The translations under genes and the position numbers were made by a program. A stretch of DNA of 64,000 nt, from the NCBI GenBank assembly GCA_015522475.1, contig WAMF01000023.1:1-64000 (forward strand), in the 5' to 3' direction. The stretch is from Microcaldota archaeon (lineage in GTDB: Archaea > Micrarchaeota > Micrarchaeia > Anstonellales > J096). Below the pieces are notes generated by a model. The model did no database searches, was not told the DNA's origin, and worked only from the letters and a program-made list of their open reading frames with translations. Position 1 is the stretch's first letter. Each line of letters opens with the position of its first letter. Of the stretch, positions 40,966 through 60,446 are shown piece by piece.

Positions 40966-43083
40966 TTAGAGGCAAAGCACTACCATAGCCACAGCTAGCT
41001 CTTCGATGCGCCTTTCCTTTGCGGCAAGGGCAAAGGGATTATCCAATGAGAATTTGCCCTCTCTAACCTCTTGCTTCTTCTTCTCAGCTAATGAAGCAAG
41101 GGCTTTTCTTGAAGCGCCTTTGACATCAGGATCTTCATCATAAGCGAGCTCTGATAAAGTATACAAGAACTCTTCTTGTAAGCCAAGCTCGCCTATGAGC
41201 TTGGCTGCCGCTACTTTCTTCCCCCATTTATCACTCATCGCTGCCCATTTTATCAATTCCTCTACTCTCTCCTTTTTCTCCTCTTCCATAGCTTCATACT
41301 CAGCCTTTACATCGTCTAATCCAGCATTTTCCCACGTATCCTCAGCTGCTTTTCTCACACCTAGATCACCGTCAAATTTCAATATCATCAACTCGGCCTT
41401 AAACTCCTTCTGTAAGCTAAGCTCATCTATGAGCTTGGCTGCTACATAGTGTCTCTCTCCATCCTCCCATCTCACCACATCCCATATAAATCCTTTTACT
41501 CGCTCTTTTTCCTCTTCTTTCATTCCTCCATACTCAGCCTTTACATCGTCTAATCCAGCATTTTCCCACGTATCCTCAGCTGCTTTTCTCACACCTAGAT
41601 CACCGTCAAATTTCAATATCATCAACTCGGCCTTAAACTCCTCGTGCAAGACTAGCTCGCCTATGAGCTTAGCTACTACATATCGTTTCTCTCCATCCTC
41701 ACTTCTCGCCACATCTCTTAGCAACTCTTTCAGCCGCTCTTTCTCTTCCACCTTCATCCCTTCATAAACGGCTTTCACATCCTCAATGTCATATTCCCAC
41801 ACCCATTCAGCTGCCTGTCTCACATCCTCATCAATGTCAAACGCCAATAACAGGAGTTCAGCTTTGAACTCCTTCTCTAAGCCAAGCTCGCCTATGAGGT
41901 TAGCTGCGGCTTCCCGCCTGCTAGAGCTGCCATTCCTCGCTGCTTCTCTTGTTAGCATCTTCAGCCGCTCTTTCTCTTCTTCATCCATAGCTTCATACTC
42001 AGCCTTTACATCACCTAAATTAGCTTTCTCCCATGCATCCTCAGCTGTTTCTCGCACATACGGATCACCATCAAACGTCAACAACAGCAGTTCAACTCTG
42101 AACTCCTCCTGCAGACCTAGCTTACCTATAAGCTCAGGCGCTCCATATCGCCTCGGATCGTCATCACTTCTCGCCACATCTCTTAGCAACTCTTTCAGCC
42201 GCTCTCTATCCTTCACCTTCATCTTCTCATAGACAGCTTTCACATCCTCAAAGCCAGCTTTCTTCCACACATCTTCAGCAGCATCTACCACATCCCACTC
42301 ATCAAACATTAGTAACATCAACTCGGCTTTAAACTCCTCTTGCAATCCCAACTCGCCTATGAGCTTGGCTGCTGCATAGCGTCTCTCTCCATAGTCACTT
42401 CTCGCCGCATCCCATATAAATCCTTTCACTCGCTCTTTTTCGTCTTCTTTCATCTGCTTATACTCAGCCTTTACACCAACTAAGTTAGCATTCCTCCATG
42501 CAGACCTAGCTCTTTCCCCAACATCCTTATAGCCATCAAACATCAGCAGCATCAACTCTGCTTTGAATTCCTCTTGCAAGCCAAGCTCACCTATGAGATT
42601 AGCTGCCGCTACTCGGCTTTTCCGGTAATCACTCCTTGCTGCTTTCCTTAGTACAGTTATAGCAAAGGCCTTCTTTACATCCACCTCACCTTTTATCTCC
42701 TTTAACCCAGATAAGGCAGCTAAGGCCATTACTGCTTTAGCTGTTTTTTCATCGTTTAAGGGCAGATTGAGGCCATTTCTATCCAACCAATCTAACCACT
42801 TTCCAAGCTCTTCATTCTCAAATTCAGGTGCTTTTATCCACCTCCACTCAGCCTCACGGCTGATGATGCCGACGAGGTCAAGGGCCTTTTCATTATCCTG
42901 CTTGTAAATGGCATAAAGGGCCTCTCCTAACTTTCTCCAATCATTCCCTGCTTGTCTTAACAGCTTAGCAACCTCTTTCTTCAGCTGCTCTTGTCGCTCT
43001 TCTAAGGGCTTAGCATCTGTCCTTTGCGGCCCTTCCACTTGCTTTCTTTTCTTTCCCTCCCCCTTCAACCCCTCCTTGCTCAT
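40966..43083 (-). CDS. HEAT-like repeat protein 1 of 6 (705 aa, 7 modules)
   Basis: Member of a local paralogous family. It has a Lys/Glu/Gln-rich N-tail, a common N-terminal domain (LLRQAGNDWRKLGEALYAIY to AFAITVLRKAARSD), then seven helical modules of about 77 residues. Each has a core like AAKLIGELGLQEEFKAELML, then FDG..VR.AAEDAWE, then DVKAEYEAMKEEEKERVKEL. The C-terminus carries the family motif NPFALAAKE ... MVVLCL. All modules are of the A type (the KAEYE form). Two modules share a 114-nt identical DNA stretch. No enzymatic motif; a solenoid for protein binding is inferred. A promoter just after the preceding gene suggests independent expression. Confidence 0.75.
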   Translation of the reverse strand: MSKEGLKGEGKKRKQVEGPQRTDAKPLEERQEQLKKEVAKLLRQAGNDWRKLGEALYAIYKQDNEKALDLVGIISREAEWRWIKAPEFENEELGKWLDWLDRNGLNLPLNDEKTAKAVMALAALSGLKEIKGEVDVKKAFAITVLRKAARSDYRKSRVAAANLIGELGLQEEFKAELMLLMFDGYKDVGERARSAWRNANLVGVKAEYKQMKEDEKERVKGFIWDAARSDYGERRYAAAKLIGELGLQEEFKAELMLLMFDEWDVVDAAEDVWKKAGFEDVKAVYEKMKVKDRERLKELLRDVARSDDDPRRYGAPELIGKLGLQEEFRVELLLLTFDGDPYVRETAEDAWEKANLGDVKAEYEAMDEEEKERLKMLTREAARNGSSSRREAAANLIGELGLEKEFKAELLLLAFDIDEDVRQAAEWVWEYDIEDVKAVYEGMKVEEKERLKELLRDVARSEDGEKRYVVAKLIGELVLHEEFKAELMILKFDGDLGVRKAAEDTWENAGLDDVKAEYGGMKEEEKERVKGFIWDVVRWEDGERHYVAAKLIDELSLQKEFKAELMILKFDGDLGVRKAAEDTWENAGLDDVKAEYEAMEEEKKERVEELIKWAAMSDKWGKKVAAAKLIGELGLQEEFLYTLSELAYDEDPDVKGASRKALASLAEKKKQEVREGKFSLDNPFALAAKERRIEELAVAMVVLCL
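41295..41408 (-). repeat. 114-nt identical internal repeat (copy 1)
   Basis: Identical to 41529-41642, offset 234 nt (78 codons, one HEAT module). Neighbouring modules are more diverged, which points to a recent unit duplication or gene conversion. Confidence 0.85.
41529..41642 (-). repeat. 114-nt identical internal repeat (copy 2)
   Basis: Second copy of 41295-41408, base for base. Lies within the same HEAT gene, one module away. Confidence 0.85.
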
Positions 43084-43146
43084 CCTTTCACCTGTAGAAT
43101 TAGGAAAGACAATGCTTAAAAGCCACTACGAGCAGAGCGCTACCAT
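43081..43146 (-). promoter_or_regulatory. HEAT cassette junction: stop motif plus promoter (copy A)
   Basis: Near-identical to 47042-47107 (about 66 nt). Read on the minus strand it contains the end of the upstream gene (codons for the terminal LCS and the TAG), then the TATA-like GGCTTTTAAGC. A leader with a CCTGTAG-like end (CTAATTCTACAGG) and GAAAGG follow, just before the next ATG. Confidence 0.7.
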
Positions 43147-46023
43147 CGCCGAGAGCAACCTCTCGCTTAGCTTGACGTCTTCGCTAAGGGCGAAGGGGTT
43201 GGGTAAAGAGGCTTTACTTTTCTTTATTTCATCTTTTATCCCTTGAATTCTATCTCTCCACAAGCTTCCCTTAGATAAGTTTAACGCATCTAAAAGTTGT
43301 ATAGCAGCACTCTGTAAATAAGTTAAACTTCTTGTTAAAAACATATTAGTCCCTAGTATCTCTAAGATGGTGTCTCTTACCCTTCTTTTTTCCTCCTCAC
43401 TCATCTGCTCATACTCGCTTTTCACATCACCAAATCCAGCAGCCTCCCATACCTCCCAAGTCGCTTCTCTCATATTACTATATTCATATCTATCAAACCT
43501 CAACACCATCAACTCAGGCTTAAACTCCTCCTGTAAGCCAAGTTCGCCTATAAGCCTAACTGCTGCATATCGCCTTTTCGCCTCATCACTCCTCGCCGCT
43601 TCCCTTATCTGCTCTTTAACCATTTCTTTCTCTTTCTTCTTCATCTGCTCATACTCGCTTTTCACATCACCTAAGCCAGCTTTCTTCCATGCATCCTCCG
43701 CTAGTTCTCCCACCTCAACATAATCAAACATCAATAACATCAACTCAGCCTTAAACTCTTCTTGCAAGCCCAGCTCACCTATGAGCTTTGCCACTGCATA
43801 GCGTTTTATCCATTCCCTACTCCTCGCCGCTTCCCTTATCTGCTCTTTAACCATTTCTTTCTCTGTCTTCTTCATCTGCTCATACTCGCTTTTCACATCA
43901 CCTAAGCCAGCTTTCTTCCATGCATCCTCAGCAGCTCTCCTCACACCCACAACATAATCAAACCTCAACACCATCAACTCAGGCTTAAACTCCTCCTGTA
44001 AGCCTATCTCGCCTATAAGCTTAGGTGCTGCATATCGCCTTTTCGCCTCATCACTCCTCGCCGCTTCCCTTATCTGCTCTTTAACCATTTCTTTCTCTTT
44101 CTTCTTCATCTGCTCATACTCTTCCTTTACATCATCTAACTCAGCTTTATCCCATGCCTCTTCAGCCACTTCTCTCACACCCACAACATAATCAAACATC
44201 AACAGCATCAACTCAGGCTTAAACTCCTCCTGTAAGCCAAGCTCGCCTATAAGCTTAGGTGCTGCATATCGCTTTACCCAATCACCACTCATCGCAGCAT
44301 CTATTATCCTTTTCTTCGTCTCATTGGCCCATCCTTTCCTTTTCTTATCCAGCTCAGCCATCACACTACTTCCTTTCCTTCTCAATTCTTTATTCCACTT
44401 ACCTAGAGCTTCAGCCGCTGCTTCGACTACACTTGAGTGTTGTCTATCGAACGCTAGCTCAATAAGCACATCTAAGAATTCCTCCTGTAAACCTAGCTCA
44501 CTTATAAACTTAGCCGCTGCTCTTCGCCTCCCCCAACCACTCATCGCAGCATCTCTTATCCTTTTCTTCGTCTCATTGGCCCATCCTTTCCTTTTCTTAT
44601 CCAGCTCAGCCATCAAACTACTGCCTTTACTCTTCAATTCTTTATTCCACTTACCTAAGAATTCAGCTGTTGGAGCAGAGATCCTGCTATATTCATCCAA
44701 TGCTAACTCGATAAGCACATCTAAGAGTTCCTCCTGTAAACCTAGCCCCATTATAATCTTAGCTGTTGTATATCGCGCATAGAACTCATCTTCTCTCGCC
44801 CATTTTCTTATCCATTCTTTCACCTCTTCACTCCAGCCCTTCTTTCTCTTCTCCAGTTCATTCATTACACTACTACCTTTCCTTCTCAATTCTTTATCCC
44901 ACTTACTAAGGGCTTCAACAGATAAGTTTGCTACACATGGAGCGCTACGTATATATGGATCAAATGCTAACTCTATCAACTCCTCTAAGAATTCCTCTTG
45001 CTGCAAACCCAATTCACTTATGAGCTTAGGTGCTGCTCCTCGTATATATAGGTTATCTATGCTATAGTCCCCTGCCACTTTTCTTATCCATTCTTTCACC
45101 TCTTCACTCCAGCCCTTCTTTCTCTTCTCCAGTTCATTCATTACACTACTACCTTTCCTTCTCAATTCTTTATCCCACTTACCTAGAGCTTCAGCCGCTG
45201 CTTCGAATACATTTGGGTGTCCATCGAATGCTAGCTCCATTAACTTATTTAAAAATTCCTCCTGTAAGCCAAGCTCGCCTATGAGCTGAGCTGCTGCCTC
45301 TCGGGTATATGTACATTCACTCGTCGCAGCATCTCTTATCCTTTCCTTTAATTTTTCACTCCAGCCCTTCTTTCTCTTCTCCAGTTCATTCATTACACTA
45401 CTACCTTTCCTTCTCAATTCTTTATCCCACTTACCTACAGCTTCAGCAGCTGCTTCGAGTACACTTGGGTGTCTATCGAACGCTAGCTCGATAAGCACAT
45501 CTAAGAGTTCCTCCTGTAAACCCAGCTCACCTATGAGCTTAGCTGCTGCTTCTCGCCTATGATCGCGTTTGCTCCTCGCTGCTTCTCTCAGCACAGTGAT
45601 GGCAAAGCCCTTCTCCACATCCTCTTCATTTTCTATCTCTCTTAAACCAGAGAGAGCAGCTAAGCTTAGCACTACCTTAGCTGTTCTTTTATTGTTTAAG
45701 GGCAGATAGAGGCCATTCCTATCCAACCGATCAAGCCACTTTCCAAGCTCTTCATCCTCCAATTTAGGTGCATTTATCCACCTCCACTCCGCCTCACGGC
45801 TGATGATGCCGACGAGCTCAAAGGCCTTTTTCTTATCTTGCTTATAAACAGCATAAAGCTCCTCGCCTAACTTCCTCCAATCATTGCCTGTTTGCCTCAG
45901 CAGCTTAGCTGCTTCCCTCTTCAGCTCTTCCTCCCTCTCCTCGAGAGGGTTAGCTTCTGCTCCTCGCTGCTGCTCTTTCTTCACCTGTTTTTCCTGTTGC
46001 TTTAGCCCTTCCTTGCCACGCAT
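43126..46023 (-). CDS. HEAT-like repeat protein 2 of 6 (965 aa, 9 modules)
   Basis: The largest paralogue. It has the same N-terminal domain (LLRQTGNDWRKLGEELYAVY to AITVLREAARSK). It then has five B-type modules (core LLDVLIELAFDRHPSVLEAA, then KWDKELRRKGSSVMNELEKR and KKGWSEEVKEWIR) and four A-type modules (ELMLLMFDYV, AEDAWKKAGLGDVKSEYEQM). A single protein therefore joins two repeat classes in blocks. The C-terminus is PNPFALSEDV ... MVALCS. DNA of adjacent modules is almost identical (for example around 43620-43720 and 43850-43950). A solenoid scaffold is inferred. TTTTAAGCC (minus strand, about 46055-46063) and GGGCGAGAG precede the start. Confidence 0.75.
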   Translation of the reverse strand: MRGKEGLKQQEKQVKKEQQRGAEANPLEEREEELKREAAKLLRQTGNDWRKLGEELYAVYKQDKKKAFELVGIISREAEWRWINAPKLEDEELGKWLDRLDRNGLYLPLNNKRTAKVVLSLAALSGLREIENEEDVEKGFAITVLREAARSKRDHRREAAAKLIGELGLQEELLDVLIELAFDRHPSVLEAAAEAVGKWDKELRRKGSSVMNELEKRKKGWSEKLKERIRDAATSECTYTREAAAQLIGELGLQEEFLNKLMELAFDGHPNVFEAAAEALGKWDKELRRKGSSVMNELEKRKKGWSEEVKEWIRKVAGDYSIDNLYIRGAAPKLISELGLQQEEFLEELIELAFDPYIRSAPCVANLSVEALSKWDKELRRKGSSVMNELEKRKKGWSEEVKEWIRKWAREDEFYARYTTAKIIMGLGLQEELLDVLIELALDEYSRISAPTAEFLGKWNKELKSKGSSLMAELDKKRKGWANETKKRIRDAAMSGWGRRRAAAKFISELGLQEEFLDVLIELAFDRQHSSVVEAAAEALGKWNKELRRKGSSVMAELDKKRKGWANETKKRIIDAAMSGDWVKRYAAPKLIGELGLQEEFKPELMLLMFDYVVGVREVAEEAWDKAELDDVKEEYEQMKKKEKEMVKEQIREAARSDEAKRRYAAPKLIGEIGLQEEFKPELMVLRFDYVVGVRRAAEDAWKKAGLGDVKSEYEQMKKTEKEMVKEQIREAARSREWIKRYAVAKLIGELGLQEEFKAELMLLMFDYVEVGELAEDAWKKAGLGDVKSEYEQMKKKEKEMVKEQIREAARSDEAKRRYAAVRLIGELGLQEEFKPELMVLRFDRYEYSNMREATWEVWEAAGFGDVKSEYEQMSEEEKRRVRDTILEILGTNMFLTRSLTYLQSAAIQLLDALNLSKGSLWRDRIQGIKDEIKKSKASLPNPFALSEDVKLSERLLSAMVALCS

Positions 46024-46066
46024 TTCTCTCGCCCATAAGCTTATGAAAGGTAAGGCTTAAAACCCA

Positions 46067-47044
46067 CTACGAGCAGAGCACTGCCATTGCTAAAAGCACT
46101 GGCTCATAGAGTTCCTTCTTTGCAGCAAGGGCAAAGGGATTGGCTAAGCGAGCCTTGCCTTCCTTTATCTTAGCCTTTTTCTCTTCGAGCTTTTTACCCT
46201 TCTCCTTGGCCCACGAAGCAAGCGCTTCTTTTGCAACTTCCATATTATTCTTATCGGCTAGCTCTATTAGTTTATCTAAGAACCCCTCCTGCAACCCAAG
46301 CTTCCATATCAACTTAGGTGCTGCTTCTCGCCTCCACAAGTCATTACTTCTAACCGCTTCTCTTATCAACTCTTTTACTCGCTCTTTTTCCTCTTCTTTC
46401 ATTTCCTCATACACAGCTTTTACATCACCAAATCTAACTTTCCATGCATCCTCGGCTGCTTTTTTTGTATCGTTCCATTCATCAAGCATCAACAGCATCA
46501 ACTCTGCTTTAAGATCCTCCTGCAACCCAAGCTCGCCTATGAGCTTAGCTGCTGCTTCTCGCTTCCAGAACGGATCACTCCTCGCTGCTTTCCTTAGCAC
46601 TGTTATAGCAAAGGCCTTATTTACGTCATCTTCGCTTTCTATCTTCTTTAAGCCGGAGAAGGTTGCTAAGGCTAGCACTGTCTTAGCTATTTTTCCACTA
46701 TTTAAGGGCAGATTGAGGCCATTTCTGTCCAACCAATCAAGCCACTTTCCAAGCTCTTTATCCTCTAATTTAGGGCCTTTTATTCCCTTCCTCAACTTGT
46801 CGTCGTGACTAATAGCTTGGATAAGCCCAAAGGCCTTCTCCTTATCCTCTTTATAGATGGTGTAAAGAGCTCCACCCAGCTTTTCCCAATCATTCCCTAA
46901 TTGTCTCAGCAGCTTAGCCGTTTCCCTCCTTAGCTTTAGTTCTTCTCGTTTTCTCTCTTGTGTTTCTTCTATAGGTTCAGCCTTTGCTTGCTGCCCTTTA
47001 ATGTGTTTTTCTTTCTTCCCTTGCTTCAGCTCCTCCTCGCTCAT
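46067..47044 (-). CDS. HEAT-like repeat protein 3 of 6 (325 aa, 2 modules)
   Basis: The shortest form. It has the common N-terminal domain (LLRQLGNDWEKLGGALYTIY to AITVLRKAARSD), one A module (AKLIGELGLQEDLKAELMLL), a partial second module (PKLIWKLGLQEGFLDKLIEL), then the terminal motif ANPFALAAKKELYEPVLLAM with LCS as the last residues. It shows that the N-domain and C-motif are constant while the repeat number varies. The promoter is part of the duplicated junction at 47042-47107, with GGCGAAAGG before the ATG. Confidence 0.73.
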   Translation of the reverse strand: MSEEELKQGKKEKHIKGQQAKAEPIEETQERKREELKLRRETAKLLRQLGNDWEKLGGALYTIYKEDKEKAFGLIQAISHDDKLRKGIKGPKLEDKELGKWLDWLDRNGLNLPLNSGKIAKTVLALATFSGLKKIESEDDVNKAFAITVLRKAARSDPFWKREAAAKLIGELGLQEDLKAELMLLMLDEWNDTKKAAEDAWKVRFGDVKAVYEEMKEEEKERVKELIREAVRSNDLWRREAAPKLIWKLGLQEGFLDKLIELADKNNMEVAKEALASWAKEKGKKLEEKKAKIKEGKARLANPFALAAKKELYEPVLLAMAVLCS

Positions 47045-47107
47045 CCTTTCGCCTGTAGAATTAGGAAAGACAATGCTTAAAAGCCACTATGAGCAGAGCA
47101 CTACCAT
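47042..47107 (-). promoter_or_regulatory. HEAT cassette junction: stop motif plus promoter (copy B)
   Basis: Second copy of the junction at 43081-43146 with only a few substitutions. TATA-like GGCTTTTAAGC at about 47074-47084 lies 30-40 nt upstream of the ATG at 47044. Confidence 0.7.
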
Positions 47108-48907
47108 GGCTAAGAGCAAATTTTTAGTAAGCTCTCTTCGCTTATTGGAGGCAAAGGGGTTGGCTAAGGGAGCTTTACCCTTCTTTATCTCAGTAATCCT
47201 TCTTTTCCTGTCCTTAATCCATGAGTTCAGTGCTTCTGCAGCCTCGGGTCTATAACGGGCAAGGCTTCTTAACTCATCCAAGAACTCCTCTTGTAAGCCA
47301 AGCTCGCCTATGAATTTAACCGCTGCTTTTTGTCTCTGCTTATCGCCACTCATCAGTGCATCTCTTATTTTTTCCTTCACCTCTTCACTCAGTCCTATAT
47401 CTCTTTTCTCTAATTCATCCAGCATACTACTGCCTTTCTTCCTGAGCTTTTTGTCCAAGTTGGCAAGGACTTCAGCTGCTGCTATAGCTACATTGGTGTT
47501 CCTATCTAGTACTAACTTCAACAATTCATCTAAGAGCTCTTCCTGCAACTCTAACCCATCTATAAGCTTAACCGCCGCTATTCGGTTGTATTTATTGTCG
47601 CTTCTTATTCTTTCTCTTATCCTTCTCTCCACTTCCTTAACCCATCCTTTCCTTCTCCTCTCCATCTCCACTATCAAACTGCTTCCTTCCTTTTTCAGCT
47701 CTTCATTCCACTTAGCGAGGGCTTCAGCCGCTATTATAGTTACATAAATTCCGTGAACGGTCTCGTCTTTATTAGTCACCAACCCTATCAGCTCATCTAA
47801 GAACTCTTCCTGCAGACCAAGCTCGCCTATCAGCTTAACCGCCGCTTCTCGCCTTCTTAAATCATTACCCTTAGCTGCTTCCCTTATCAATTCCTTTACT
47901 TGCTTCTTCTCTTCTTCGTTCATCTTCTTGTATTCAGCTTTTACGCTACCTAATCCAGCCTTCTTCCATGCCTCATCAGCCGCTTCTCTCACAGCCTTAG
48001 CCTCATCGAACACCAACAGCATCAACTCAGGCTTGAACTCTTCCTGCAAGCCCAGCTTGCCTATAAGCTTAACCGCCGCTTCTCGCCTTTCCCATACGTC
48101 ACTCCTAACTGCTTCTCTTGCGAGCTCTAGTAGTTCCTTTTTCTCTCTGTTATTAAGTCCTTCATATACTCGTTTGGCATCGAATTCCAGCCCCTTCTTC
48201 CCCTTCTTATCCTTAATACCATTTTCATTGACCCATGCTGCATGAGCCAACTCAGACACCTTCATCTTAGCTAACTGAGTAGGAGCGGTTTCATCAGCCG
48301 CGTAAACTTTCATATTATATTCGTCAAACATTGCAAGGAGAGCCTCAGGTAGGCATGGCTTGTACATACCTAAAAAGTACATGAGCATTGCCCCTATACG
48401 TCGATATCCTCCTTCATCCTGTCTCAGGAGTTCTTTGGTGATGGGCACTAGTCCTGCCTTGACTATATCCTTATCACTATTGAATGCCTTGATGCCTGAG
48501 AGAGTGGCTAAACCCAGAATAGCCTTGCTTGTATCCTCTTCTAACTTTTTTAAGGATTGCGGCATCTTTCTCTTAATTAATACATCTGTGGTAAGCTCTT
48601 CGAAGGCCTTTTTGAAGATTCTTTTTTCTTCCTCTGTTTTGAGCTTTATTCCCCTATGCCCATTAATTTTGTTGATAGCTTCTAGAAGCCTTAAAGCTGC
48701 CTTTTTATCTTGCTTGTAGATAGCGTAGAGCCGCTTCCCAACTTCTAACCATTCTCCATTACTCTCTCTTAATAGCTTTTTTGCCTCTTTTTCTGACTCA
48801 TCTCTTTTATCATTTAATGTTGGTTTTTTCTTCAAAATTTTATCACTTCTTTTGGCTGTTTCTTGGAGGAACACTCTCAATTTACTCATGCAATACTTCC
48901 AACTCAT
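47087..48907 (-). CDS. HEAT-like repeat protein 4 of 6 (606 aa, 4 clear modules)
   Basis: Directly downstream of the VWA gene and coupled to it. The ATG at 48907 lies 4 nt after the VWA stop codon (48912-48914), and GGAGG in the VWA 3' end serves as ribosome-binding site. The N-terminal domain is more divergent (LLRESNGEWLEVGKRLYAIY, then LATLSGIKAFNSDKDIVKAG). A unique region (about 200-260) is followed by one A module, one transition module and two B modules (KKGSSMLDELEKRDIGLSEE). The C-terminus is ANPFASNKRR ... MVVLCS. Coupling to the VWA gene marks it as the paralogue most surely tied to the ATPase system. Confidence 0.75.
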   Translation of the reverse strand: MSWKYCMSKLRVFLQETAKRSDKILKKKPTLNDKRDESEKEAKKLLRESNGEWLEVGKRLYAIYKQDKKAALRLLEAINKINGHRGIKLKTEEEKRIFKKAFEELTTDVLIKRKMPQSLKKLEEDTSKAILGLATLSGIKAFNSDKDIVKAGLVPITKELLRQDEGGYRRIGAMLMYFLGMYKPCLPEALLAMFDEYNMKVYAADETAPTQLAKMKVSELAHAAWVNENGIKDKKGKKGLEFDAKRVYEGLNNREKKELLELAREAVRSDVWERREAAVKLIGKLGLQEEFKPELMLLVFDEAKAVREAADEAWKKAGLGSVKAEYKKMNEEEKKQVKELIREAAKGNDLRRREAAVKLIGELGLQEEFLDELIGLVTNKDETVHGIYVTIIAAEALAKWNEELKKEGSSLIVEMERRRKGWVKEVERRIRERIRSDNKYNRIAAVKLIDGLELQEELLDELLKLVLDRNTNVAIAAAEVLANLDKKLRKKGSSMLDELEKRDIGLSEEVKEKIRDALMSGDKQRQKAAVKFIGELGLQEEFLDELRSLARYRPEAAEALNSWIKDRKRRITEIKKGKAPLANPFASNKRRELTKNLLLAMVVLCS

Positions 48908-48911
48908 CCTT

Positions 48912-51900: not shown

Positions 51901-52904
51901 TAGATATAGGCTAGCATCCACGAAATATTTTTCTCTACTTCCTCGTCTCCCTTGAAAAAAGCCCTCAGGTAGTTATCTAGGGCAACGTCGCCATGAACAT
52001 ATGCTGGTATGAGAAAGATTTCCGGTTGCTGCAGGAGCTTGGTGAACTTCTCTTCAATGCTTTCTTGCCACACCGTGTTTAGCGTGTCCTTTGATAGCTT
52101 CCCTTCTTTCTCAGCGGCTTTAACGGTTTCTTCGAGTACTAAGCCCAGTACTCTGTAGAGCTGGCCCGGAAGATGTCCTTCTAAAGTGCCTTTCTCATAG
52201 AATCGTTCTGCAGGGTAGTTGAGAAGTATTGTCATCTGCATATAGAGCTTATCCTTAACAAGCGGGAGCATGTCTTCTGCAAAGAATTCTTTGAACAAGG
52301 TTTTCTTTTCTTCTATAACTTTAATAAGTGCCTTTATCTCCTCTTTTTCAGATATGTTTTTTTCCAAATCGTTATGGGCTTTTAATGCATCCAATGTATT
52401 TTCAAAAGCTCTTTCAGCGTCCCCCAACAAAATAACATCCTCTATTGCATTTTTTACACTTTTAACAGCTCTTTCAATAGCGTGGTCCACATATTCGAAA
52501 ACAATTTTAGTTTCCTCTTTGGAGAGATGCTTTAAGTAGCGGCCTTCAAGGTTGCTTTCAGCTAAAATCTTCTTCAAGAGGTATAAATAACGTGTATCTG
52601 CTACGAGTTTTCTTATGGTTCTTTTTAGAGGGAGAAACACACCTATATTTTCCAGTTCTTCTTCAAGAGAAGGTAGTTCACTCTTTAACTCTTTGTATAT
52701 TTTATCGAATGCTACAAGGATTCTATCGTCTGACCACTCTTCTGGATGAAGGGTCTTGCTCAACGCTCTTCTGAAACGGATAAACCCTTCTGGCAACCGA
52801 CCTTCATGAGTTTTCTCTCTGTCTTTTTTATAACTGCCTTTTCTTATAGACTCTGGCTCTTGCTCTCTTTTTTTTGCTAAGGTGTTGAGATATAAACCGC
52901 ACAT
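48912..52904 (-). CDS. Giant VWA protein with zincin-like motif and acidic linker (1330 aa)
   Basis: Three regions. Residues 1-850 are mostly helical and include HETRH at 525-529 (in LSVITHETRHIKYGSFRF), followed much later by NIVEDYRIDNLF, an arrangement like the HExxH plus E/D third-ligand layout of VWA-linked putative metallopeptidases (DUF2201, NorD/CbbO relatives). Next is a long Lys/Glu/Gly/Ser-rich acidic linker, as in CobT and Rea1. The C-terminal VWA domain (about 1055-1300) has a complete MIDAS: D1065-x-S1067-x-S1069, T1176 (GGTD) and D1220 (WTDFGD). Such proteins couple AAA+ ATPases to targets through the metal site. GGGTGAG precedes the ATG; it is 4 nt from the upstream 108-aa gene. 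Confidence 0.82.
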   Translation of the reverse strand: MCGLYLNTLAKKREQEPESIRKGSYKKDREKTHEGRLPEGFIRFRRALSKTLHPEEWSDDRILVAFDKIYKELKSELPSLEEELENIGVFLPLKRTIRKLVADTRYLYLLKKILAESNLEGRYLKHLSKEETKIVFEYVDHAIERAVKSVKNAIEDVILLGDAERAFENTLDALKAHNDLEKNISEKEEIKALIKVIEEKKTLFKEFFAEDMLPLVKDKLYMQMTILLNYPAERFYEKGTLEGHLPGQLYRVLGLVLEETVKAAEKEGKLSKDTLNTVWQESIEEKFTKLLQQPEIFLIPAYVHGDVALDNYLRAFFKGDEEVEKNISWMLAYIYSLRQGMGLPPLNAEYIGKEIGLSPEKALEKIGIANEGILETLERGGDLFGKKSKEREEEDEEEEKREKNGILTLFGDMMREINRERTLYFFPQEILLARDMKSQLLTLEDVRVFSLFSVDLERSSVLKFWRSSIVLKNISDKLHLRLRGIDTTSPFEAFTNGEEIYVTPFYTYFPTYPLNQLAMLSVITHETRHIKYGSFRFPYDPQPTINFERYEERIPTIMKSLAEKEGVSVKELKEELEEIERAFEKIFDKFYRKIKKDVPMQDSKETIEKTGMSLREAKEYLLETTVKELEKLNLKILGNRVEAFAYLISSIVDPQTGATMFDQLQNIVEDYRIDNLFMEDPDGVRDPFLNFIDIGTRNEEEKLAAFRMGYDLGKYLLLRRAMMSVLNAKASQDVKDNFNFLVSMLLAYSKTGPVMKALLKDEELSEREREIFAIMDAVMEKVLPRDEKGNMVRKMHGKDSWEATFEAALFFTLIASDTEEMGRTIRDLKDKLKNNLNKPERKSGKSCNKSGRGQSRESQGSRQKSGEKSEDENKEKGKGDKGKGKGDEEEENEERGGAEQENRKGEEKSEEGGSEEESEGDELNKEEEKSEEPDPGKDDMKKGEEGELERLKPEERKTKYGEQRGGPGRETAEEVEAKYEISVTIPRSSIEMYKEALKEVKVGTITPVKEWSKISGRPNERRILEFIYSKGMKSKTFFQKKKLRIDEKKGHYLFQRPITMYLVVDVSGSMDLETNSEGKLMDDFMSSELAKDKEGHTVKTRARFALYNNLAILTAYKELLEEGNIDKDILNVEIIGVANSGDKIVIKPSDIRIESSGKKGDVTIKMPNPLELTGGTDLGAMMKSAVETIKENEKRVKEEFLEGIRRIALTPNILFIFWTDFGDWGGNVEEGLKAIAQIALQYNEDSELIGEASKYINAKRASVGVIFISPDNRVDENAPYEKIKEYLGEDYTLILYNSDDAPEHMKKLMGVYRSGEAKATNVHIPSSKEE

Positions 52905-52908
52905 TTAC

Positions 52909-53235
52909 TCACCCTGTGAAATAAAAAATGGGCCTACCTTCTTTTCTCATTTTTGTGTATGCCACTCTGTTTAAGAAGTAGCCTTCAAAATATAGCTTAG
53001 CAGACTTCTTCCTTTCCTTTAGCAACTCACTTATGGATATATTGGAGAGTGTATATAGGAGCGCCTCTTCTAGAAGGGTATCGTCTGCGTTCTGTTGTGC
53101 TTTTTTATATGTGGCTATTATCCACTCAGCCAATACCTCCTTTTCTTTGTTGGGTAGGGCTAAGTTTTCTATAACTTTTGAGACTTTGTTTGCCAACGCC
53201 TTGTTCATAATCTTGTCAAGTTCGAGTTCTATCAT
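52909..53235 (-). CDS. Small helical protein between the ATPase and VWA genes (108 aa)
   Basis: Not recognised. All-helical and charged (MIELELDKIMNKALANKVSK, then LLEEALLYTLSNISISELLK), ending GRPIFYFTG. It is 12 nt after the AAA+ gene and 4 nt before the VWA gene, with GAGGTGA upstream, so it is translationally linked to both. Most likely an adaptor or regulatory subunit of the ATPase/VWA complex, by position only. Confidence 0.65.
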   Translation of the reverse strand: MIELELDKIMNKALANKVSKVIENLALPNKEKEVLAEWIIATYKKAQQNADDTLLEEALLYTLSNISISELLKERKKSAKLYFEGYFLNRVAYTKMRKEGRPIFYFTG

Positions 53236-53247
53236 ATGTTCACCTCT

Positions 53248-56079
53248 TCATTCATTATTCTTCTCAGTTCCTTTGCTTGCAATAGCCGTTTCGAGCCTAT
53301 TTTCAATAAGCCCAAGCAGATATATTTCCCACTTTTTCAGTCCCTTCTTCTCCTCACTTTCTTCTTCCATCCTTTCTTTAATTTCAAGGCCCGCATCCAG
53401 AGGATTTATCTGTTGGATACTTCCTAGTACATCATGCACTCTCAATGATTTTACAGCTTCGCTTAATTCTTTATTATTTTCTTCTAATTGTGAGAAAAAC
53501 GTTCTAAGGAGTATTTCGCTTTTAGAGGCCGCTTTATTTTCATCACCATATGCAACGGCTAGGATTTCTGTAGTCCACTCCAGTAAGGGTAGATATATCT
53601 TGCCGTCTATGTCCTCTGGCTTTGTGGCTACCTTACTTAGCTCTGGACTAAAATAATATACAAGCACAGCCCTACTTATAAAGTTGTCTATGTATTGAGT
53701 GGAGACGTTACTTGTACCTATGACTATAATATTGCTCACATCGTACACTTCTTCTCCTAAATGGAGGGTATCTGATGTGAGAAGCTCATTGAGGTGTTGC
53801 GTAAAATCGAGCGCATCAATCTCATCTATTGTTACAAGATATAATATATCTTTGTGTTTTTGGGCTTCTTTGACTACAGACAGCAACTTTGGTTCGCCCG
53901 TAAGACTTTTCTCGTTGCCTTCAGATTCACTTTCTTCCACCTTGATCGCTCCTTCTACAAGTTGGGCTTCTTCCGAAGGGTTCTCAATATCTACCATCTT
54001 AATGCCTTCAAATGGGAAAAAGGGGAAAAGCCCATTCTCCAACTCTTTGTTGCGCTTCATCTCTTTTATGAGTGTGTTTAATAAATAGGGCAATATTTTC
54101 TTACTCATTGTTGTTTTACCTTCCTGTGTTATGCCCGTGTAGAAGAAAAACTTTTGGCCAGCCAACAAGCTTGTAAATGTAGAGAGTAAATACATGTAAT
54201 AGATAGGGCTTAAGTAATACGAGTAGCCACTCTTTTCGCCATTTAATTCCAATACTACTAAATCTCTATCTTTTTCAAGAGAATCTGGCAGATAATCTTT
54301 CACTTCTTTGAAAACTTTGTCTAGTGTAATCTCTACTTGAGTAGTGTCTAACTTGTCAACTTCACTTCTAATCATAATACTCCCAGTCTTTATATGTGCT
54401 TGGGCCCTTAACATGGCGCATATAAAGTTTAAGTACCCTTCTGGAGAGACTTCTATTTTCTTCAAAACCTCTTCTAATGATGGGATGTTGTTATCAAAAT
54501 TGAATGAGACTTTTTGGATCATCTTTATTGTGCCTCTGTCTGTGCTCTCTACTTTCTCTAATAATGCTGGCATATCTAAGCCTCTCATTTTTCCAATCTC
54601 TTTCTCCCCTAATCTCATACTCTGTAAAACTTTTTCAATTGTATAAAAGCGAAAGACTGCTTTCGCGGCGCCTTCTATGTTTCTCAAAGAGGGTAAAATG
54701 TGCACTTTCTTCTCCTTCCATTGCTCGTATAAGGCTTTGTATGTCTTAAGTATCTCGGTCTTTATGGTTTTTAAGCTATTTCTATCTAAATTTACCTCTC
54801 TGCCTCCAGCTTTCTCATACCACTCATTTAATTTTTCCTCTAAAAAGTGTTCGACACCCTCTGGTGGAATGTAGGTGACTCTATATGTAAAGAGACGCTC
54901 CTTTGTGGACTTCATTAACCCAACAATATTATCACTTTCACTATCTCTTATATTACCTGTGCCTATGATAATAAAATTAGGGGGGATTTCAATCCTTAAG
55001 CTTTTTTCACTTGTCCACTTTGCTAAACCTTCCTTTACAAGGCGGTTTACGATATTCTTTGTTTCGGGTGAAAGTTCTTCTTCTGAAATACTCATCTCGT
55101 AGGGGTCACCTTTTAGATAAGCATCAAAGAAAGGGTGAAGAATCTTAGGTGATTTTTCGGAATCTATCTTAACTAGTTCAGAGAGCTCATCTAAGATGAG
55201 GATTGTAAAATGGCCTTCTGCAGCTTTCCCAATTAGAGAAAGTAATTTAGATGTTACTTCTTTTTTTAGAATTTCTTTCCTGCGTACTTTGTATTCTCCT
55301 TTCTCAATAAACTCTGAAGATGTTTCTTGAGCTGGCATAACAACTTTATCAACTACGATCTTCTCTTTCCATTTTAAGTTTTTTAGGCCTTTCACAACAT
55401 GTGAAGTTAATATGTCATAGTACATAGTAGTGAATACCCTCTGTAAATCTTTTTTTATTCTTTCGTCGCCAACTTGCTCCATTCTTTTGGCCATTGTATT
55501 GACAATCTCCTCCAGGGGTTTATTTAAAACTACTCTGCCTTTTTTAACATCTTCTTTGAATATCTCTCTCAGGCTCTCTTCCTTTTTTTCTGTCTTTTTG
55601 GCTTCAGGAATCAATTTATCGATATTTTTCAATAACTCTTTTTTATCCTTCGGAGGTTCATCTGAAGTTACAGTATTCAAAACTTTTTCTATCCACTTGC
55701 TTAGCACAAACTCTGCAGTGAACGTCTTTCCCGTACCGGGCTCACCTTCTAGAAAGATGACTTTGTAAGGTGTTTCTGACGGTTCTTTTTTGCTAATATA
55801 AAGTGCACTCTTACCTTCATCTTTTTCAACATTCTCTGAAATCTTGTTTAATCCTCTGAGACCACTACTAATATGGTTTGCTACATTACGTATTGTATCC
55901 ATTGCTGCAGCCAAAGCAGCTTCAATAGATGCATTTTCTTCTACAATGCCCGCTTTTCTTATCCTTTCTAAGTAGTTCGGCGCTTCAATATTCCTTTGCG
56001 AAGCACCTTCTATTCTTGGGGTTTTTCCTTCTGCTTCAATCTCTTCTTTTATTTGTGCCCATTGTTGTGTTGATGCCAT
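53248..56079 (-). CDS. Tandem AAA+ ATPase of MoxR/midasin-like type (943 aa)
   Basis: Two ATPase modules in one chain. Module 1: Walker A GEPGTGKT (112-119), Walker B FTILILDELSEL (about 291-301), sensor-1-like IIIGTGN (about 371-377) and a candidate arginine finger in KERLFTYRV. Module 2: a variant Walker A, GITQEGKTT (649-657), Walker B LVTIDEIDAL, sensor-1 IIVIGTSN and SRAVLVYYF. The linker is helical. Fusion of two modules resembles midasin/dynein rather than single-module MoxR. ATG at 56079 (GGTGGAG upstream) is preferred over GTG at 56085. First large gene of the unit with the VWA partner downstream, so a chaperone/remodelling motor is inferred. Confidence 0.85.
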   Translation of the reverse strand: MASTQQWAQIKEEIEAEGKTPRIEGASQRNIEAPNYLERIRKAGIVEENASIEAALAAAMDTIRNVANHISSGLRGLNKISENVEKDEGKSALYISKKEPSETPYKVIFLEGEPGTGKTFTAEFVLSKWIEKVLNTVTSDEPPKDKKELLKNIDKLIPEAKKTEKKEESLREIFKEDVKKGRVVLNKPLEEIVNTMAKRMEQVGDERIKKDLQRVFTTMYYDILTSHVVKGLKNLKWKEKIVVDKVVMPAQETSSEFIEKGEYKVRRKEILKKEVTSKLLSLIGKAAEGHFTILILDELSELVKIDSEKSPKILHPFFDAYLKGDPYEMSISEEELSPETKNIVNRLVKEGLAKWTSEKSLRIEIPPNFIIIGTGNIRDSESDNIVGLMKSTKERLFTYRVTYIPPEGVEHFLEEKLNEWYEKAGGREVNLDRNSLKTIKTEILKTYKALYEQWKEKKVHILPSLRNIEGAAKAVFRFYTIEKVLQSMRLGEKEIGKMRGLDMPALLEKVESTDRGTIKMIQKVSFNFDNNIPSLEEVLKKIEVSPEGYLNFICAMLRAQAHIKTGSIMIRSEVDKLDTTQVEITLDKVFKEVKDYLPDSLEKDRDLVVLELNGEKSGYSYYLSPIYYMYLLSTFTSLLAGQKFFFYTGITQEGKTTMSKKILPYLLNTLIKEMKRNKELENGLFPFFPFEGIKMVDIENPSEEAQLVEGAIKVEESESEGNEKSLTGEPKLLSVVKEAQKHKDILYLVTIDEIDALDFTQHLNELLTSDTLHLGEEVYDVSNIIVIGTSNVSTQYIDNFISRAVLVYYFSPELSKVATKPEDIDGKIYLPLLEWTTEILAVAYGDENKAASKSEILLRTFFSQLEENNKELSEAVKSLRVHDVLGSIQQINPLDAGLEIKERMEEESEEKKGLKKWEIYLLGLIENRLETAIASKGTEKNNE

Positions 56080-56107
56080 TTCCACTCCACCCTTTTTAAC
56101 TGTCTAT

Positions 56108-56791
56108 TCACGCGGCATTATCCAGCCTTTGGCTTTCTTTTATGAAGTAGAGCTTATCCATGATTTGGGGTGGATGGTAACCCTCTATTATTGTGGTTAG
56201 AAGATATTCAATGTCACCGTCATTTGGTGGAGCCAGTCCTTTTACATTCCCTTCTAGAGCACTTAACAAGATTCCAGCACCCCTAACTATGTTACCCTCT
56301 GTTCTGTCGGCTAAGCTGTCTGCAAAATTCGTCGTTGTTCTAGGTGTGCCGTCCTCTTTTACCCAATATTGCACAACAATTCTTGCCACATCCTTATCTT
56401 CAATGCTAGGATTTTCTAGAGTGTATATACTTTTCACCAAGCCCATAAGCACAGCCAGAGAACCAACTTTGCTCATAGGAGCACCATTTTCCTTGGCCAT
56501 AATTGCGTAGTGATTTATGTTCTCTATAACTTTGCTGAGGCTGCTAGCTATCAAGGCCGCTGCCACAATCTTCTCATCTTCTGTTTTTGCTTGCTCTATC
56601 AGCCTTCTCGAATCCTCAGGAAGGTTTGCCAAAGTCAGACTTCGTATGAGTCTTTTCATGGCTTCGTTTTTGAAGGAGATGTTGTCCTTTGCTTCTTTGA
56701 GCAAGCTATCTTCAGCTCTCAACATGGCATCCAAACCCATTTTTGGGTTCTCAAAAAACTCATCACATATTATACTGTCAATTCCTGCCAT
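56108..56791 (-). CDS. Hypothetical 227-aa protein, first gene of the AAA/VWA unit
   Basis: Not recognised. Soluble, helical and acidic (LDAMLRAEDSLLKEAKDNIS, then AALIASSLSKVIENINHYAI). It ends LYFIKESQRLDNAA, 28 nt before the ATPase start, so it is cotranscribed. GGTGG lies just upstream of the ATG. The near-palindromic TTAAGCTTAA (about 56826-56835) provides a TATA-like box roughly 35 nt upstream and may also serve the plus-strand RNA at 56853. A role as a subunit or sensor of the ATPase system is inferred from position only. Confidence 0.65.
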   Translation of the reverse strand: MAGIDSIICDEFFENPKMGLDAMLRAEDSLLKEAKDNISFKNEAMKRLIRSLTLANLPEDSRRLIEQAKTEDEKIVAAALIASSLSKVIENINHYAIMAKENGAPMSKVGSLAVLMGLVKSIYTLENPSIEDKDVARIVVQYWVKEDGTPRTTTNFADSLADRTEGNIVRGAGILLSALEGNVKGLAPPNDGDIEYLLTTIIEGYHPPQIMDKLYFIKESQRLDNAA

Positions 56792-56852
56792 TTGACCACC
56801 ACTTATATAGTGTATATAGGTGTTTTTAAGCTTAACGTTTATGGTTGTTTGT

Positions 56853-57060: not shown

Positions 57061-57143
57061 CCATCTTCCTCTTCCTGCACTATTTTTAGTCGTTACCGGT
57101 TGGAATAATTCGAGAAATAAGACGTTAAATCTCGGTTTATCAG

Positions 57144-58148
57144 TTAGAGGCAGACCCCTGCAATAGCTAAGAACAGCTCCTCCTTGAGCTCTTCCTTGTT
57201 GGTAAGGGTGAAGGGATTAGCTAAGTGGGCTTTGTCTTCTTTCACCTCTTCTACTATCTTCTTGACCCAAGAGACAAGAGCTTTTCTTGCCGGGTGGCTG
57301 ACAACAAGATCTTTATCGTAAGCGAGCTTCATGAGGGGATCTAACAACTCCTTCTCTAAGCCCAGCTCGCCTATAAGCTTGGCTGCTGCTTCTTGTCTAT
57401 CCCAATAATCACTCCTCGCCGCTTCCCTTATTAGCTCCTTCACTCTCTCTTTCTCCTCTTCATCCATCGCCTCATACTCTGCCTTTACATCACCTAACCC
57501 ATCCTTCTCCCACACCTCCTCAGCCGCACCACTTGCCTTATACCACCCATCGAACATCAACAACATCAACTCAGCCTTTAACTCCTTCTGTAAGCTTAGC
57601 TCGCCTATGAGTATGGCTGCTGCTTCTCGGTTCTGGGACAGCAGATCACTTTTCACTGCTTCCCTTAGCACAGTTATAGCAAAAGCCTTTTTTACATCCT
57701 CCTCACCTTTTATTTCCCTTAACCCGGACAAAGCAGCTAAGCCCAGCACGGCTTTACTCAACTTTTCATCATCCAATGAGAATTTAAGCTTTTTATCCCT
57801 TAGAAGATCTAGCCATTCCTTAACTAACCATTCATTAAGCTGTTCATCCTTCAATTCAGATGCTTTTATCCCATTCCTTAACTTCTCATCGCGGCTAATG
57901 GGTTCAATAATCTCGAAGGCTTTTTTCTTATCCCGCTTATAAATCCCATAAAGGGCTTCGCCTAGCTTTTCCCAATCCCCCTTCGCCTCCTCAACCAGCT
58001 TAGCTGCTTCTCTCTTCAATTTTAGCTCCTTTTGCCTTCCTTCCTGCTTTTCTTCTAAGGGCTCAGCCTCTGCCTTCCGTTGCTTCTCTTTAGCTCCTTT
58101 TTGTTTTTCTTTCCTTTTCAACCTCTTTTTCCCATCCATTTTCCCCAT
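57144..58148 (-). CDS. HEAT-like repeat protein 5 of 6 (334 aa, 2 modules)
   Basis: Basic N-tail (KKRLKRKEKQKGAKEKQRKA), common N-terminal domain (VEEAKGDWEKLGEALYGIYK to AITVLREAVKSD), two modules (AILIGELSLQKELKAELMLL and AKLIGELGLEKELLDPLMKL), and the terminal motif ANPFTLTNKEELKEELFLAI with VCL at the end. Same plan as protein 3, from the other side of the ATPase unit. The leader has a TATA-like TTTTTAAGT (about 58166-58174). Confidence 0.73.
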   Translation of the reverse strand: MGKMDGKKRLKRKEKQKGAKEKQRKAEAEPLEEKQEGRQKELKLKREAAKLVEEAKGDWEKLGEALYGIYKRDKKKAFEIIEPISRDEKLRNGIKASELKDEQLNEWLVKEWLDLLRDKKLKFSLDDEKLSKAVLGLAALSGLREIKGEEDVKKAFAITVLREAVKSDLLSQNREAAAILIGELSLQKELKAELMLLMFDGWYKASGAAEEVWEKDGLGDVKAEYEAMDEEEKERVKELIREAARSDYWDRQEAAAKLIGELGLEKELLDPLMKLAYDKDLVVSHPARKALVSWVKKIVEEVKEDKAHLANPFTLTNKEELKEELFLAIAGVCL

Positions 58149-58178
58149 AAATTTAGGAAAAGTAATACTTAAAAACCT

Positions 58179-60446
58179 CTACGAGCAGAGCAGAGCCATG
58201 CCTAAGACAAGCTTATCTCTAAGCTTCTCAGCCTCGTTAAGGGCGAAAGGGTTGGGTAAAAGGGCTTTGTCTTCCTTCATTTTAACAGCTTCTTCTCCAA
58301 CTCCTTTCCTATTTCTTTTAGCCCATGAGCTCAATGCTTTTCCTCCAACACTTCTAACCTTTTTGGCATCATCCAAGACAAACTTTATTAATATTCTCAA
58401 CAACTCATCTTCCAATCCCAATTTGCTTATTAGCTTAGCTGCTGCATACCATCTATCTCTACAATAACTCCTCGCCGCTTCCCTTATCAGCTCTTTCACT
58501 CGATCCTTATTCTTTTCACTCATTTTCTCATATACTCTTCTTACGTAACCTAAGCTAGCCTTCTTCCACACACTCTTAGCTATTTTTCTTACATCCTTAT
58601 CACCATCAAACATCAGCAGCATCAACTCAGCTTTGAACTCCTCCTGCAAGCCCAGCGCTTCTATGAGTTCAATTGCCGCATGTCGCCTTTTTGAGTAATT
58701 ATTTCTCATTGCTTCTCTTATCAATTCCTTCACTTGCTCTTTCTCCCCTTTTCTCATCTCATCATAAAAAACCTTCACATCACCAAACCCAGCTCTCTCC
58801 CATGCATCCTCAGCAGCTCCTCTCACACCACCATTGTCATCAAAGCTCAAAAATATCATCTCAATCTTATATTCCTCCTGCAAACCCAGCCCACCTATAA
58901 GCTTAACCGCCGCTTCTCGCCTTCCACTCCTTACCCCCACTCTTATCTTCTCCTTTACTTCCTCAGCCCATCCTTTCCTCTTCTTCTCCAGCTCAGCCAT
59001 TACGCTACTCCCTTTCTTCTCCAGCTCTTCATTCCACTCGCCAAGAATTTCAGCTGCCGTTGCACTCACATATTTATCCTCATCAAGCGCTAGCTTCACT
59101 AACATATCTAAAAACTCTTTTTGTAACTCCAAATGTTTGATAATGAAAAGCGCGTTTTCTGATCTCAACACATCTTCAGAGAGTACAGCTTTAACTATTA
59201 GCTCTTCTATCCTGTGTTTTTCCTGGTCACTTAACACCTCTCCATATATCTCTTTTCCAGTTTTTCCGGCTGTCCTTTCATAAGCAGCCAATGCTTCTCT
59301 AGCTGCATCCATTGCATTTAAATCCTCGTCATAAGATGTCAAAACAAGCTCGGGTAAGAATCTTTCTTGAAGATCAAAAACCTTTGTTGCAATGGCTGCG
59401 GAGGCCCTTCGATTACTGGATTTATCATAGAATGACTTTTTTATCTGTTCCACTATCCAGTTAGATAACCCTATCCAGTTAGATATCCCCATCGTTCTTT
59501 TTTCAAACTCTTCAAGCAGGCTATCATCTTTTTCTCTCAGCTCTTTAGCCCACTCCTCCAAGACATATCCTGCTTCTGTTTCTCCATGTTTGAGAAGGAG
59601 TGTGTTTAAGTCATACCAATATTCTTCCTGAAGGCCAAAGGCCTTTATGAGAGAGATAGCGTATTTCCATGTAATGCTCTTTGCCAACCATTTTTTTATA
59701 TCCTTCTTTATCTCTTCACTCCATCCTTTTCTTTTCTTCTCTGCCACTTTCAAAGCATTGCTACCCTGTTTCTTCAGCTCCCTAGCCCACCTACTCAACA
59801 TTTCATTAACAAACTTTTTTCTTATATAGAAGGAAGAGAAATTCCTCATTTCCCATCTCTTCATAATCTCCACTAACTCTTCTAAGAGGTCTTCTATGAG
59901 ATTGAGCTTCTCCGTGAGTTTAGCTGCCCGCTCGTAGTCTGGCTTAGGTGGAAAGAAGGCATCCCATGTCAGAGCTATAACGGTGACTGCAAAACCCCTC
60001 TTCACATCCTTCTCACCTTTTATCTCCTTCTTTAAGCCAGAAAGGGCAGCTAAGCCAAGCACTGTTTTAGCCCTTTCCTCATCATCTATAGGGAAGTTAA
60101 ATTCCTCCTCTTCCAATATATCTAGCAATATACCTAGCCACTGCTTTAACTGTTCGTTTTCAAATTTCATATATTTGTAGCGTCCTCTTTTCTTGTTTAT
60201 TTCACTTATAACTGCAAAGGCCTCCTCTTTATCCTCCTTATAAATCTTGTAAAGTTCTTCGCCCAAAGCCCTCCATTTGCCCCCTATTTTATCTATTAGT
60301 GCCTTGACTTTTTCCTCCCTACTTACTATGAGTTTGTCTTCTAATGGCTCCAATGACTGTGGTTGTCTTTCGCTTTTTGATTTCTGTCTTTCTTTTGTTC
60401 CATTTTGTTTATTTAATTCTTTTCTCTTAACCATTTTTTCACACAT
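58179..60446 (-). CDS. HEAT-like repeat protein 6 of 6 (755 aa, about 7 modules, most diverged)
   Basis: The N-terminal domain is recognisable (IGGKWRALGEELYKIYKEDK to GFAVTVIALTWD). The first four modules are degenerate (for example ISLIKAFGLQEEYWYDLNTL and LFIIKHLELQKEFLDMLVKL). The last three are near consensus (VKLIGGLGLQEEYKIEMIFL, IELIEALGLQEEFKAELMLL, AKLISKLGLEDELLRILIKF). The C-terminus is PNPFALNEAEKLRDKLVLGM with LCS last. It is the outermost member and probably the oldest by divergence. ACTTTATAAAGG (about 60464-60475) precedes a leaderless ATG. Confidence 0.73.
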   Translation of the reverse strand: MCEKMVKRKELNKQNGTKERQKSKSERQPQSLEPLEDKLIVSREEKVKALIDKIGGKWRALGEELYKIYKEDKEEAFAVISEINKKRGRYKYMKFENEQLKQWLGILLDILEEEEFNFPIDDEERAKTVLGLAALSGLKKEIKGEKDVKRGFAVTVIALTWDAFFPPKPDYERAAKLTEKLNLIEDLLEELVEIMKRWEMRNFSSFYIRKKFVNEMLSRWARELKKQGSNALKVAEKKRKGWSEEIKKDIKKWLAKSITWKYAISLIKAFGLQEEYWYDLNTLLLKHGETEAGYVLEEWAKELREKDDSLLEEFEKRTMGISNWIGLSNWIVEQIKKSFYDKSSNRRASAAIATKVFDLQERFLPELVLTSYDEDLNAMDAAREALAAYERTAGKTGKEIYGEVLSDQEKHRIEELIVKAVLSEDVLRSENALFIIKHLELQKEFLDMLVKLALDEDKYVSATAAEILGEWNEELEKKGSSVMAELEKKRKGWAEEVKEKIRVGVRSGRREAAVKLIGGLGLQEEYKIEMIFLSFDDNGGVRGAAEDAWERAGFGDVKVFYDEMRKGEKEQVKELIREAMRNNYSKRRHAAIELIEALGLQEEFKAELMLLMFDGDKDVRKIAKSVWKKASLGYVRRVYEKMSEKNKDRVKELIREAARSYCRDRWYAAAKLISKLGLEDELLRILIKFVLDDAKKVRSVGGKALSSWAKRNRKGVGEEAVKMKEDKALLPNPFALNEAEKLRDKLVLGMALLCS

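Follow-up and report, generated by a model that had tools for sequence, protein, structure and literature searches.

An AAA+/VWA gene core with solenoid neighbours and cysteine-ended C-terminal tags in Micrarchaeota

The locus described here raises the question of what an archaeal AAA+ ATPase and its VWA partner act on when the neighbouring genes encode a family of paralogous repeat proteins. To our knowledge, known AAA+/VWA machines have one dedicated client each, and how VWA proteins recognize clients is still largely open. The window, a 64,000-nucleotide stretch of DNA, represents contig C23 of a 0.91-Mb Micrarchaeota genome in 23 contigs (G000). An earlier note on this DNA had described an AAA+ ATPase, a VWA protein, two small proteins and six HEAT paralogues on one strand, and all of these ORFs do lie on the minus strand. 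Their order, 5' to 3', is HEAT755, HEAT334, a 352-base gap, a four-gene core, HEAT624, HEAT325, HEAT965 and HEAT705. The core consists of a 227-aa protein of unassigned fold (56108–56791; from the ORF list and comparison with relatives), a tandem AAA+ ATPase of 945 aa (53248–56085), a 108-aa protein placed between ATPase and VWA (52909–53235; from position and comparison with relatives) and a 1330-aa VWA protein (48912–52904). The spacers within the core are 22, 12 and 4 bases long, and the start of HEAT624 overlaps the end of the VWA gene. A 136-aa plus-strand gene (40552–40962) converges on HEAT705 end to end. Housekeeping genes flank the locus. Its GC content of 42.3% gives no clear sign of an island, the value for 19-kb stretches across the genome being 43.9% (sd 0.9).

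We ran profile searches on 301 Micrarchaeota genomes; the relatives are mostly MAGs called Candidatus Micrarchaeota. The AAA and VWA profiles each matched the same five genomes: the window genome, G001 and G002 from its genus, G005 from its family and G011 from its order. This co-occurrence supports the AAA+/VWA pairing proposed in the earlier note. Weak AAA matches in G004 and G008 were rejected: on reading, one proved to be a Cdc48-type ATPase and the other an unrelated protein of 223 aa. When conserved peptide patterns were searched for in 84,980 species genomes, a set from which the window genome may be excluded, only four of the same five came up, all Micrarchaeota. Scanning species-genome contigs with a single AAA protein found nothing, and no AAA or VWA relatives were found in IMG/VR, phage or plasmid records within the sensitivity of the scan. 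We rejected an origin from a mobile element or virus on the basis of this lack of viral, phage or plasmid relatives and of the housekeeping flanks.

Gene order around the pair is partly retained. G001 and G002 retain the succession of AAA, a small protein and VWA; in G011, AAA and VWA are adjacent. The full order in G001 is a 229-aa protein, AAA, a 102-aa protein, VWA and one HEAT protein (428 aa). Upstream of its AAA gene, G001 encodes a counterpart of the 227-aa core protein with 43% identity; the small proteins that G002 and G011 have at this position (167 and 419 aa, respectively) show no detectable homology to it. The 108-aa position is also occupied by small proteins in G001, G002 and G005, with weak but detectable homology to those of G001 and G002. 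AAA and VWA are followed in G011 by two ankyrin proteins on the same strand (414 and 148 aa), and ankyrin proteins adjoin AAA and VWA fragments in G005. In G002, AAA, a 114-aa protein and VWA are followed by genes for ribosomal proteins, and its short contigs show no solenoid gene beside the pair. Solenoid genes thus adjoin the core in four of the five genomes, as HEAT proteins in G000 and G001 and as ankyrin proteins in G005 and G011. The solenoid neighbours are conserved, but their fold is not. The earlier note had cast the HEAT proteins as the third component of the system; solenoids beside the core bear out that part of the idea, but HEAT as such is not what is conserved, since two relatives have ankyrin proteins instead. 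A survey of the open-access literature found no paper joining Micrarchaeota with HEAT repeats and none on this arrangement, which is weak evidence of novelty.

Both modules of the ATPase, already read as tandem, are complete: the Walker A and Walker B motifs, sensor 1 and an arginine-finger residue are present in each and are conserved among relatives. The Walker A motifs are GEPGTGKT in module 1 (residues 114–121; 55723–55746) and TGITQEGKTT in module 2 (residues 649–659; 54109–54141), and the Walker B motifs are at residues 295–304 and 751–759. Pfam matches were to AAA_22 (E = 7e-10) and AAA (E = 1.5e-7). Motifs and Pfam placement together identify a double-module AAA+ ATPase. The MoxR/dynein-type model AAA_5 matched three of four members (best 6.6e-8), with AAA_22 and AAA scoring higher; the window protein scored 21.1 against it, just under the cut-off of 22. 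Judged from sequence, the clade is plausibly MoxR-like. The AAA gene of G005 has a frameshift between its two modules (L025, G005:C55, about 900–970), which may be an assembly error or decay.

No Pfam or NCBIfam model names the window VWA protein, and it has no significant sequence match in the PDB. Its MIDAS is complete, with DVSGS starting at residue 1065 (DVSGSM, 49695–49712), GGT at 1174 (T, 49371–49385) and TDFGD at 1219 (D, 49236–49250). The acidic linker that had been seen together with the MIDAS spans residues 843–975 or so, and the N-terminal region, about 480 aa, is helical. We ran AlphaFold2 on residues 400–1330. The model was poor overall (pLDDT 47), with a usable VWA domain at about 1060–1250 (mostly pLDDT 70–88). 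When this model was compared with 350,542 PDB chains in Foldseek, the best match was 9qh6_G, which is NorQ with the NorD VWA domain (E = 5e-6, probability 1.0). Its E-value was two orders of magnitude ahead of that of the next VWA, and Rea1 was also in the list. Structure prediction thus recovered the VWA fold, and its closeness to the NorQ-bound NorD domain makes the core a divergent AAA+/VWA pair.

NorQ/NorD is a MoxR AAA+ with a VWA partner that functions in nitric oxide reductase maturation. In the NorQD complex, a finger of the VWA protein reaches into the AAA+ pore, and NorD binds the postS1 loop of NorQ through its C-terminus (PMC13036017). Two places in our VWA proteins are conserved. 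The five VWA proteins are only 22–36% identical, yet K and N of the C-terminal K-(A/T)-(T/S)-N motif (48939–48953) are invariant in all five, and the alignment has a conserved segment directly before the MIDAS strand (49779–49865). From the alignment, the fold match and the published complex (PMC13036017), we infer that this segment is the counterpart of the NorD finger segment.

The earlier note had overlooked an HExxH motif in the VWA protein, as well as the tagged 136-aa gene, the change of solenoid fold and the common Cys-ended tag. The motif (HETRH; residues 525–529; 51318–51332) has H525, E526 and H529 invariant in 5/5 proteins. It is followed by an NIxxDxR(I/V)D motif at residues 666–674 (NIxEDxRID in the window; 50883–50909), in which N, I, D, R and the last D are likewise invariant. 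Together, these two sequence motifs suggest a zincin-like domain. The HExxH region of the model is mostly below pLDDT 50, and the protein has no Pfam metallopeptidase match.

The HEAT-like nature of the six paralogues, as first proposed, was upheld by Pfam and Foldseek. HEAT_2 matched HEAT965 with an E-value of 2e-23. The AlphaFold2 model of HEAT334 (pLDDT 82) matched the PP2A scaffold and alphaRep with probabilities of 0.99–1.0, but with E of about 0.01 and low TM-scores. Variable repeats had been taken in the earlier note as a sign of changing targets. The most variable repeat positions are in the inter-helix loops (15–18 and 47–53), and variability located in loops does not by itself demonstrate target-driven diversification. 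Near-identical spacers, containing a TTTTAAG box and GGNGAAAGG, lie upstream of HEAT705 (43084–43125), HEAT965 (46024–46066) and HEAT325 (47045–47086), and a related TTTTAAG spacer lies upstream of HEAT334 (58149–58178). Near-identical spacers upstream of four HEAT genes are what would be expected from recent tandem duplication.

All six HEAT proteins end in a C-terminal tag of about 28 residues, consisting of NPF, a spacer and LLxAMxxLC(S/L). The genes, all on the minus strand, are HEAT755 (58179–60446; tag 58182–58262), HEAT334 (57144–58148; tag 57147–57227), HEAT624 (47087–48961; tag 47090–47170), HEAT325 (46067–47044; tag 46070–46150), HEAT965 (43126–46023; tag 43129–43209) and HEAT705 (40966–43083; tag 40969–41049). 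The tag of HEAT334 was modelled as a separate low-confidence helix (319–333) beyond a flexible stretch, outside the solenoid. The 136-aa neighbour carries the same tag (40894–40959) and is weakly related to a tagged protein of 230 aa that G001 encodes at the margin of its locus. Across 860 kb, or 94% of G000, the tag occurs in 8 of 743 ORFs versus 0.29 expected after tail shuffling; seven are at the locus and one (517 aa) is on contig C18. A tag profile found 8 proteins in G000 and at least 15 in G001. Elsewhere it gave single weak matches in three genomes (E = 3.6e-4 to 0.0095), of which the best is a 411-aa ORF with no Cys near its end. An initial idea, that no other part of the HEAT proteins is as conserved as the tag, was dropped, since mean pairwise identity is 48% in the tag, 47% in the N-domain and 52% in the repeats. 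The point of the tag is its restriction and its invariant NPF and Cys residues.

Ankyrin proteins of G005 have a Cys-ended tail of their own, F...F..C(T/I)x. Of 239 ORFs in the G005 contigs that were read, 17 have it, all of them ankyrin-like, against an expectation of 0.42. The corresponding profile found about 26 proteins in G005 and otherwise only weak single matches (E ≥ 0.0036) in ten genomes. A Cys-ended C-terminal tag is therefore common to G000, G001 and G005, in lineage-specific form. What the HEAT and ankyrin tags have in common is the Cys at the end and an amphipathic stretch leading up to it. They are not confidently alignable, and so they are possibly unrelated; the ankyrin-tag profile does not find HEAT tags (best cross-match E = 0.5). 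CaaX-like lipidation was considered for the ankyrin tails, many of which end in CxxX. We did not adopt it because the Cys is followed by a variable number of residues, and in HEAT tails by one residue or none.

The three tag genomes all fall within the five machine genomes, an outcome with a random chance of 2.2e-6 if relatedness is ignored; given their kinship, there are only about two independent tag origins. By ORF tails read and by profile, the HEAT-rich G003 and the ankyrin-rich G006 and G009 are untagged, and all of these are without AAA-VWA. Whole-genome profile searches of G002, with tails read in about 177 kb, found no tagged proteins, and the ankyrin neighbours in G011 have no Cys tag. 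Most tagged genes of G001 and G005 lie away from the core.

We consider, with a probability of roughly 0.45, that the locus encodes a NorQ/NorD-like remodeller together with tagged solenoid clients or adaptors. The double-module ATPase would form a ring, and the VWA protein would plug into it via the pre-MIDAS segment and the conserved C-terminus, presenting its MIDAS, zincin-like region and long helical stretch to clients. A lineage-specific family of cytoplasmic solenoids, HEAT in G000 and G001 and ankyrin in G005, would serve as these clients or as adaptors. The Cys-ended tag would be recognized as a common handle, and the variable solenoid would bind different targets. ATP-driven motion could then remodel, unload or, if the zincin-like region is active, clip the tagged solenoids. 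The strongest argument is that the solenoid fold changes by lineage while the neighbourhood and the Cys-ended tail recur only with the motor, which suggests that the motor handles interchangeable, tagged binding proteins. The strongest objections are the motors of G002 and G011, which have no Cys tag to go with them, and the scattered location of tagged genes. More tentatively, this may be an undescribed archaeal AAA+/VWA platform whose motor stays the same while different lineages couple their own solenoids, HEAT or ankyrin, to it via a Cys-ended tag; target handling would then be modular, ATP-driven and possibly proteolytic, and a genome would supply dozens of binders. That ankyrin proteins take the place of HEAT proteins next to the same motor suggests that the binding scaffold is exchangeable in evolution. 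A variable binding body with a constant tail on many paralogous solenoids would offer a simple, testable handle on client recognition by VWA proteins and, if the reading is true, would give a function to the large families of repeat proteins found in some of the reduced genomes of Micrarchaeota.

Comparison with known AAA+/VWA systems shows where this one differs. It shares with NorQ/NorD an AAA+ gene beside a large VWA gene, a complete MIDAS, a disordered linker before the VWA domain, a conserved VWA C-terminus and the best PDB fold match. Unlike NorQ/NorD, it has two AAA modules fused in one chain, an extra HExxH region, the long helical N-region, extra small proteins and no sequence-family match; solenoid neighbours replace the respiratory enzyme, and we saw no NOR genes among the ORFs of the locus. 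CbbQ/CbbO, RavA/ViaA and CoxD/CoxE also pair an AAA+ with a VWA partner on a third protein, but their clients are single dedicated enzymes rather than multi-copy tagged solenoids, and no sequence match to them was found. CobS/CobT and Mg-chelatase resemble it in AAA+/VWA organisation, in the acidic linker and in a weak CobT match of one member (E = 0.046); they differ in that the AAA is double here and no chelatase partner gene was seen at the locus. Rea1/Midasin likewise has several AAA modules per chain and a MIDAS VWA, and it appeared in the fold search, but here the VWA is a separate protein and there are two AAA modules instead of six. MoxR-vWA ternary systems combine an AAA+/VWA core with a diverse third component, as this locus does; superstructure-forming repeats occur in some of them, as do C-terminal peptide precursors (Kaur et al. 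2020, PMC7159879). Some bacterial members include a metallopeptidase and a variable precursor with a conserved C-terminal FxSxx-COOH peptide (PMC7159879). At our locus, however, the repeats are separate proteins that are not fused to the vWA protein, and PMC7159879 does not mention ankyrin. Searches of the core and HEAT proteins with Pfam, NCBIfam and PADLOC found no VMAP, iSTAND, FtsH, beta-propeller third component or effector domain.

Other explanations weigh the same evidence differently. One is that the client of the AAA-VWA pair is something conserved and unrelated to the tagged solenoids, which would be a separate expanding family (for example scaffolds, symbiosis factors or Cys-anchored membrane-associated proteins) located nearby by chance. 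G002, where the pair sits beside ribosomal protein genes without tagged solenoids, fits this explanation, as does the dispersal of most tagged genes in G001 and G005; the HEAT genes, with their own near-identical TTTTAAG upstream spacers, are possibly autonomous tandem duplicates. We think it rather doubtful, since solenoids adjoin the core in four of five genomes despite the change of fold and tags occur only in machine genomes. Another takes the HExxH/NIxxDxR(I/V)D region to be an active metallopeptidase and has the machine cut off the C-terminal tags, so that solenoids or tail peptides are activated or set free. The invariance of HExxH in such divergent proteins favours cleavage, and the tags are short, C-terminal, flexible and common to otherwise variable proteins; the FxSxx-COOH precursors near some MoxR-vWA systems are a precedent (PMC7159879). 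This is nonetheless unlikely, because a third zinc ligand is not established, Pfam gives no metallopeptidase match, the model is unreliable in this region and neither a radical-SAM gene nor any other modifying gene turned up at the locus.

A role in conflict or defence, with variable solenoids sensing invaders and the AAA-VWA machine triggering a response, is very improbable. Patchy distribution (5/301), paralogue expansion with gene remnants and a formal similarity to the ternary conflict systems of the MoxR-vWA type (PMC7159879) would suit it, but the locus has no toxin, nuclease or other effector domain, no PADLOC match, no mobile-element signature and no GC anomaly, and its neighbours are housekeeping genes. 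The earlier suggestion of adaptation to viruses, host surface proteins or conflict is not supported: there is no PADLOC match and no GC anomaly that would indicate an island, and the scans of IMG/VR, phage and plasmid records gave no relatives.

The tagged-client reading aside, several features of repeat-protein genes in relatives were recorded. G005 has a very large ankyrin expansion (91 Ank_2 matches), tagged in part only (L121–L140). G003, which has neither AAA-VWA nor tags, has expanded its HEAT genes independently (41 HEAT_2 matches; L159, L160, L215–L217). HEAT remnants in G001 include a tail-only ORF between VWA and the 428-aa HEAT gene (L020:11793–11933) and an N-terminal-only ORF elsewhere (L145:8322–8573), which indicates birth and death of HEAT genes. 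G001 also encodes a tagged 1408-aa protein (L145:3975–8201) that is apparently composed of all-helical repeats and has little Pfam similarity.
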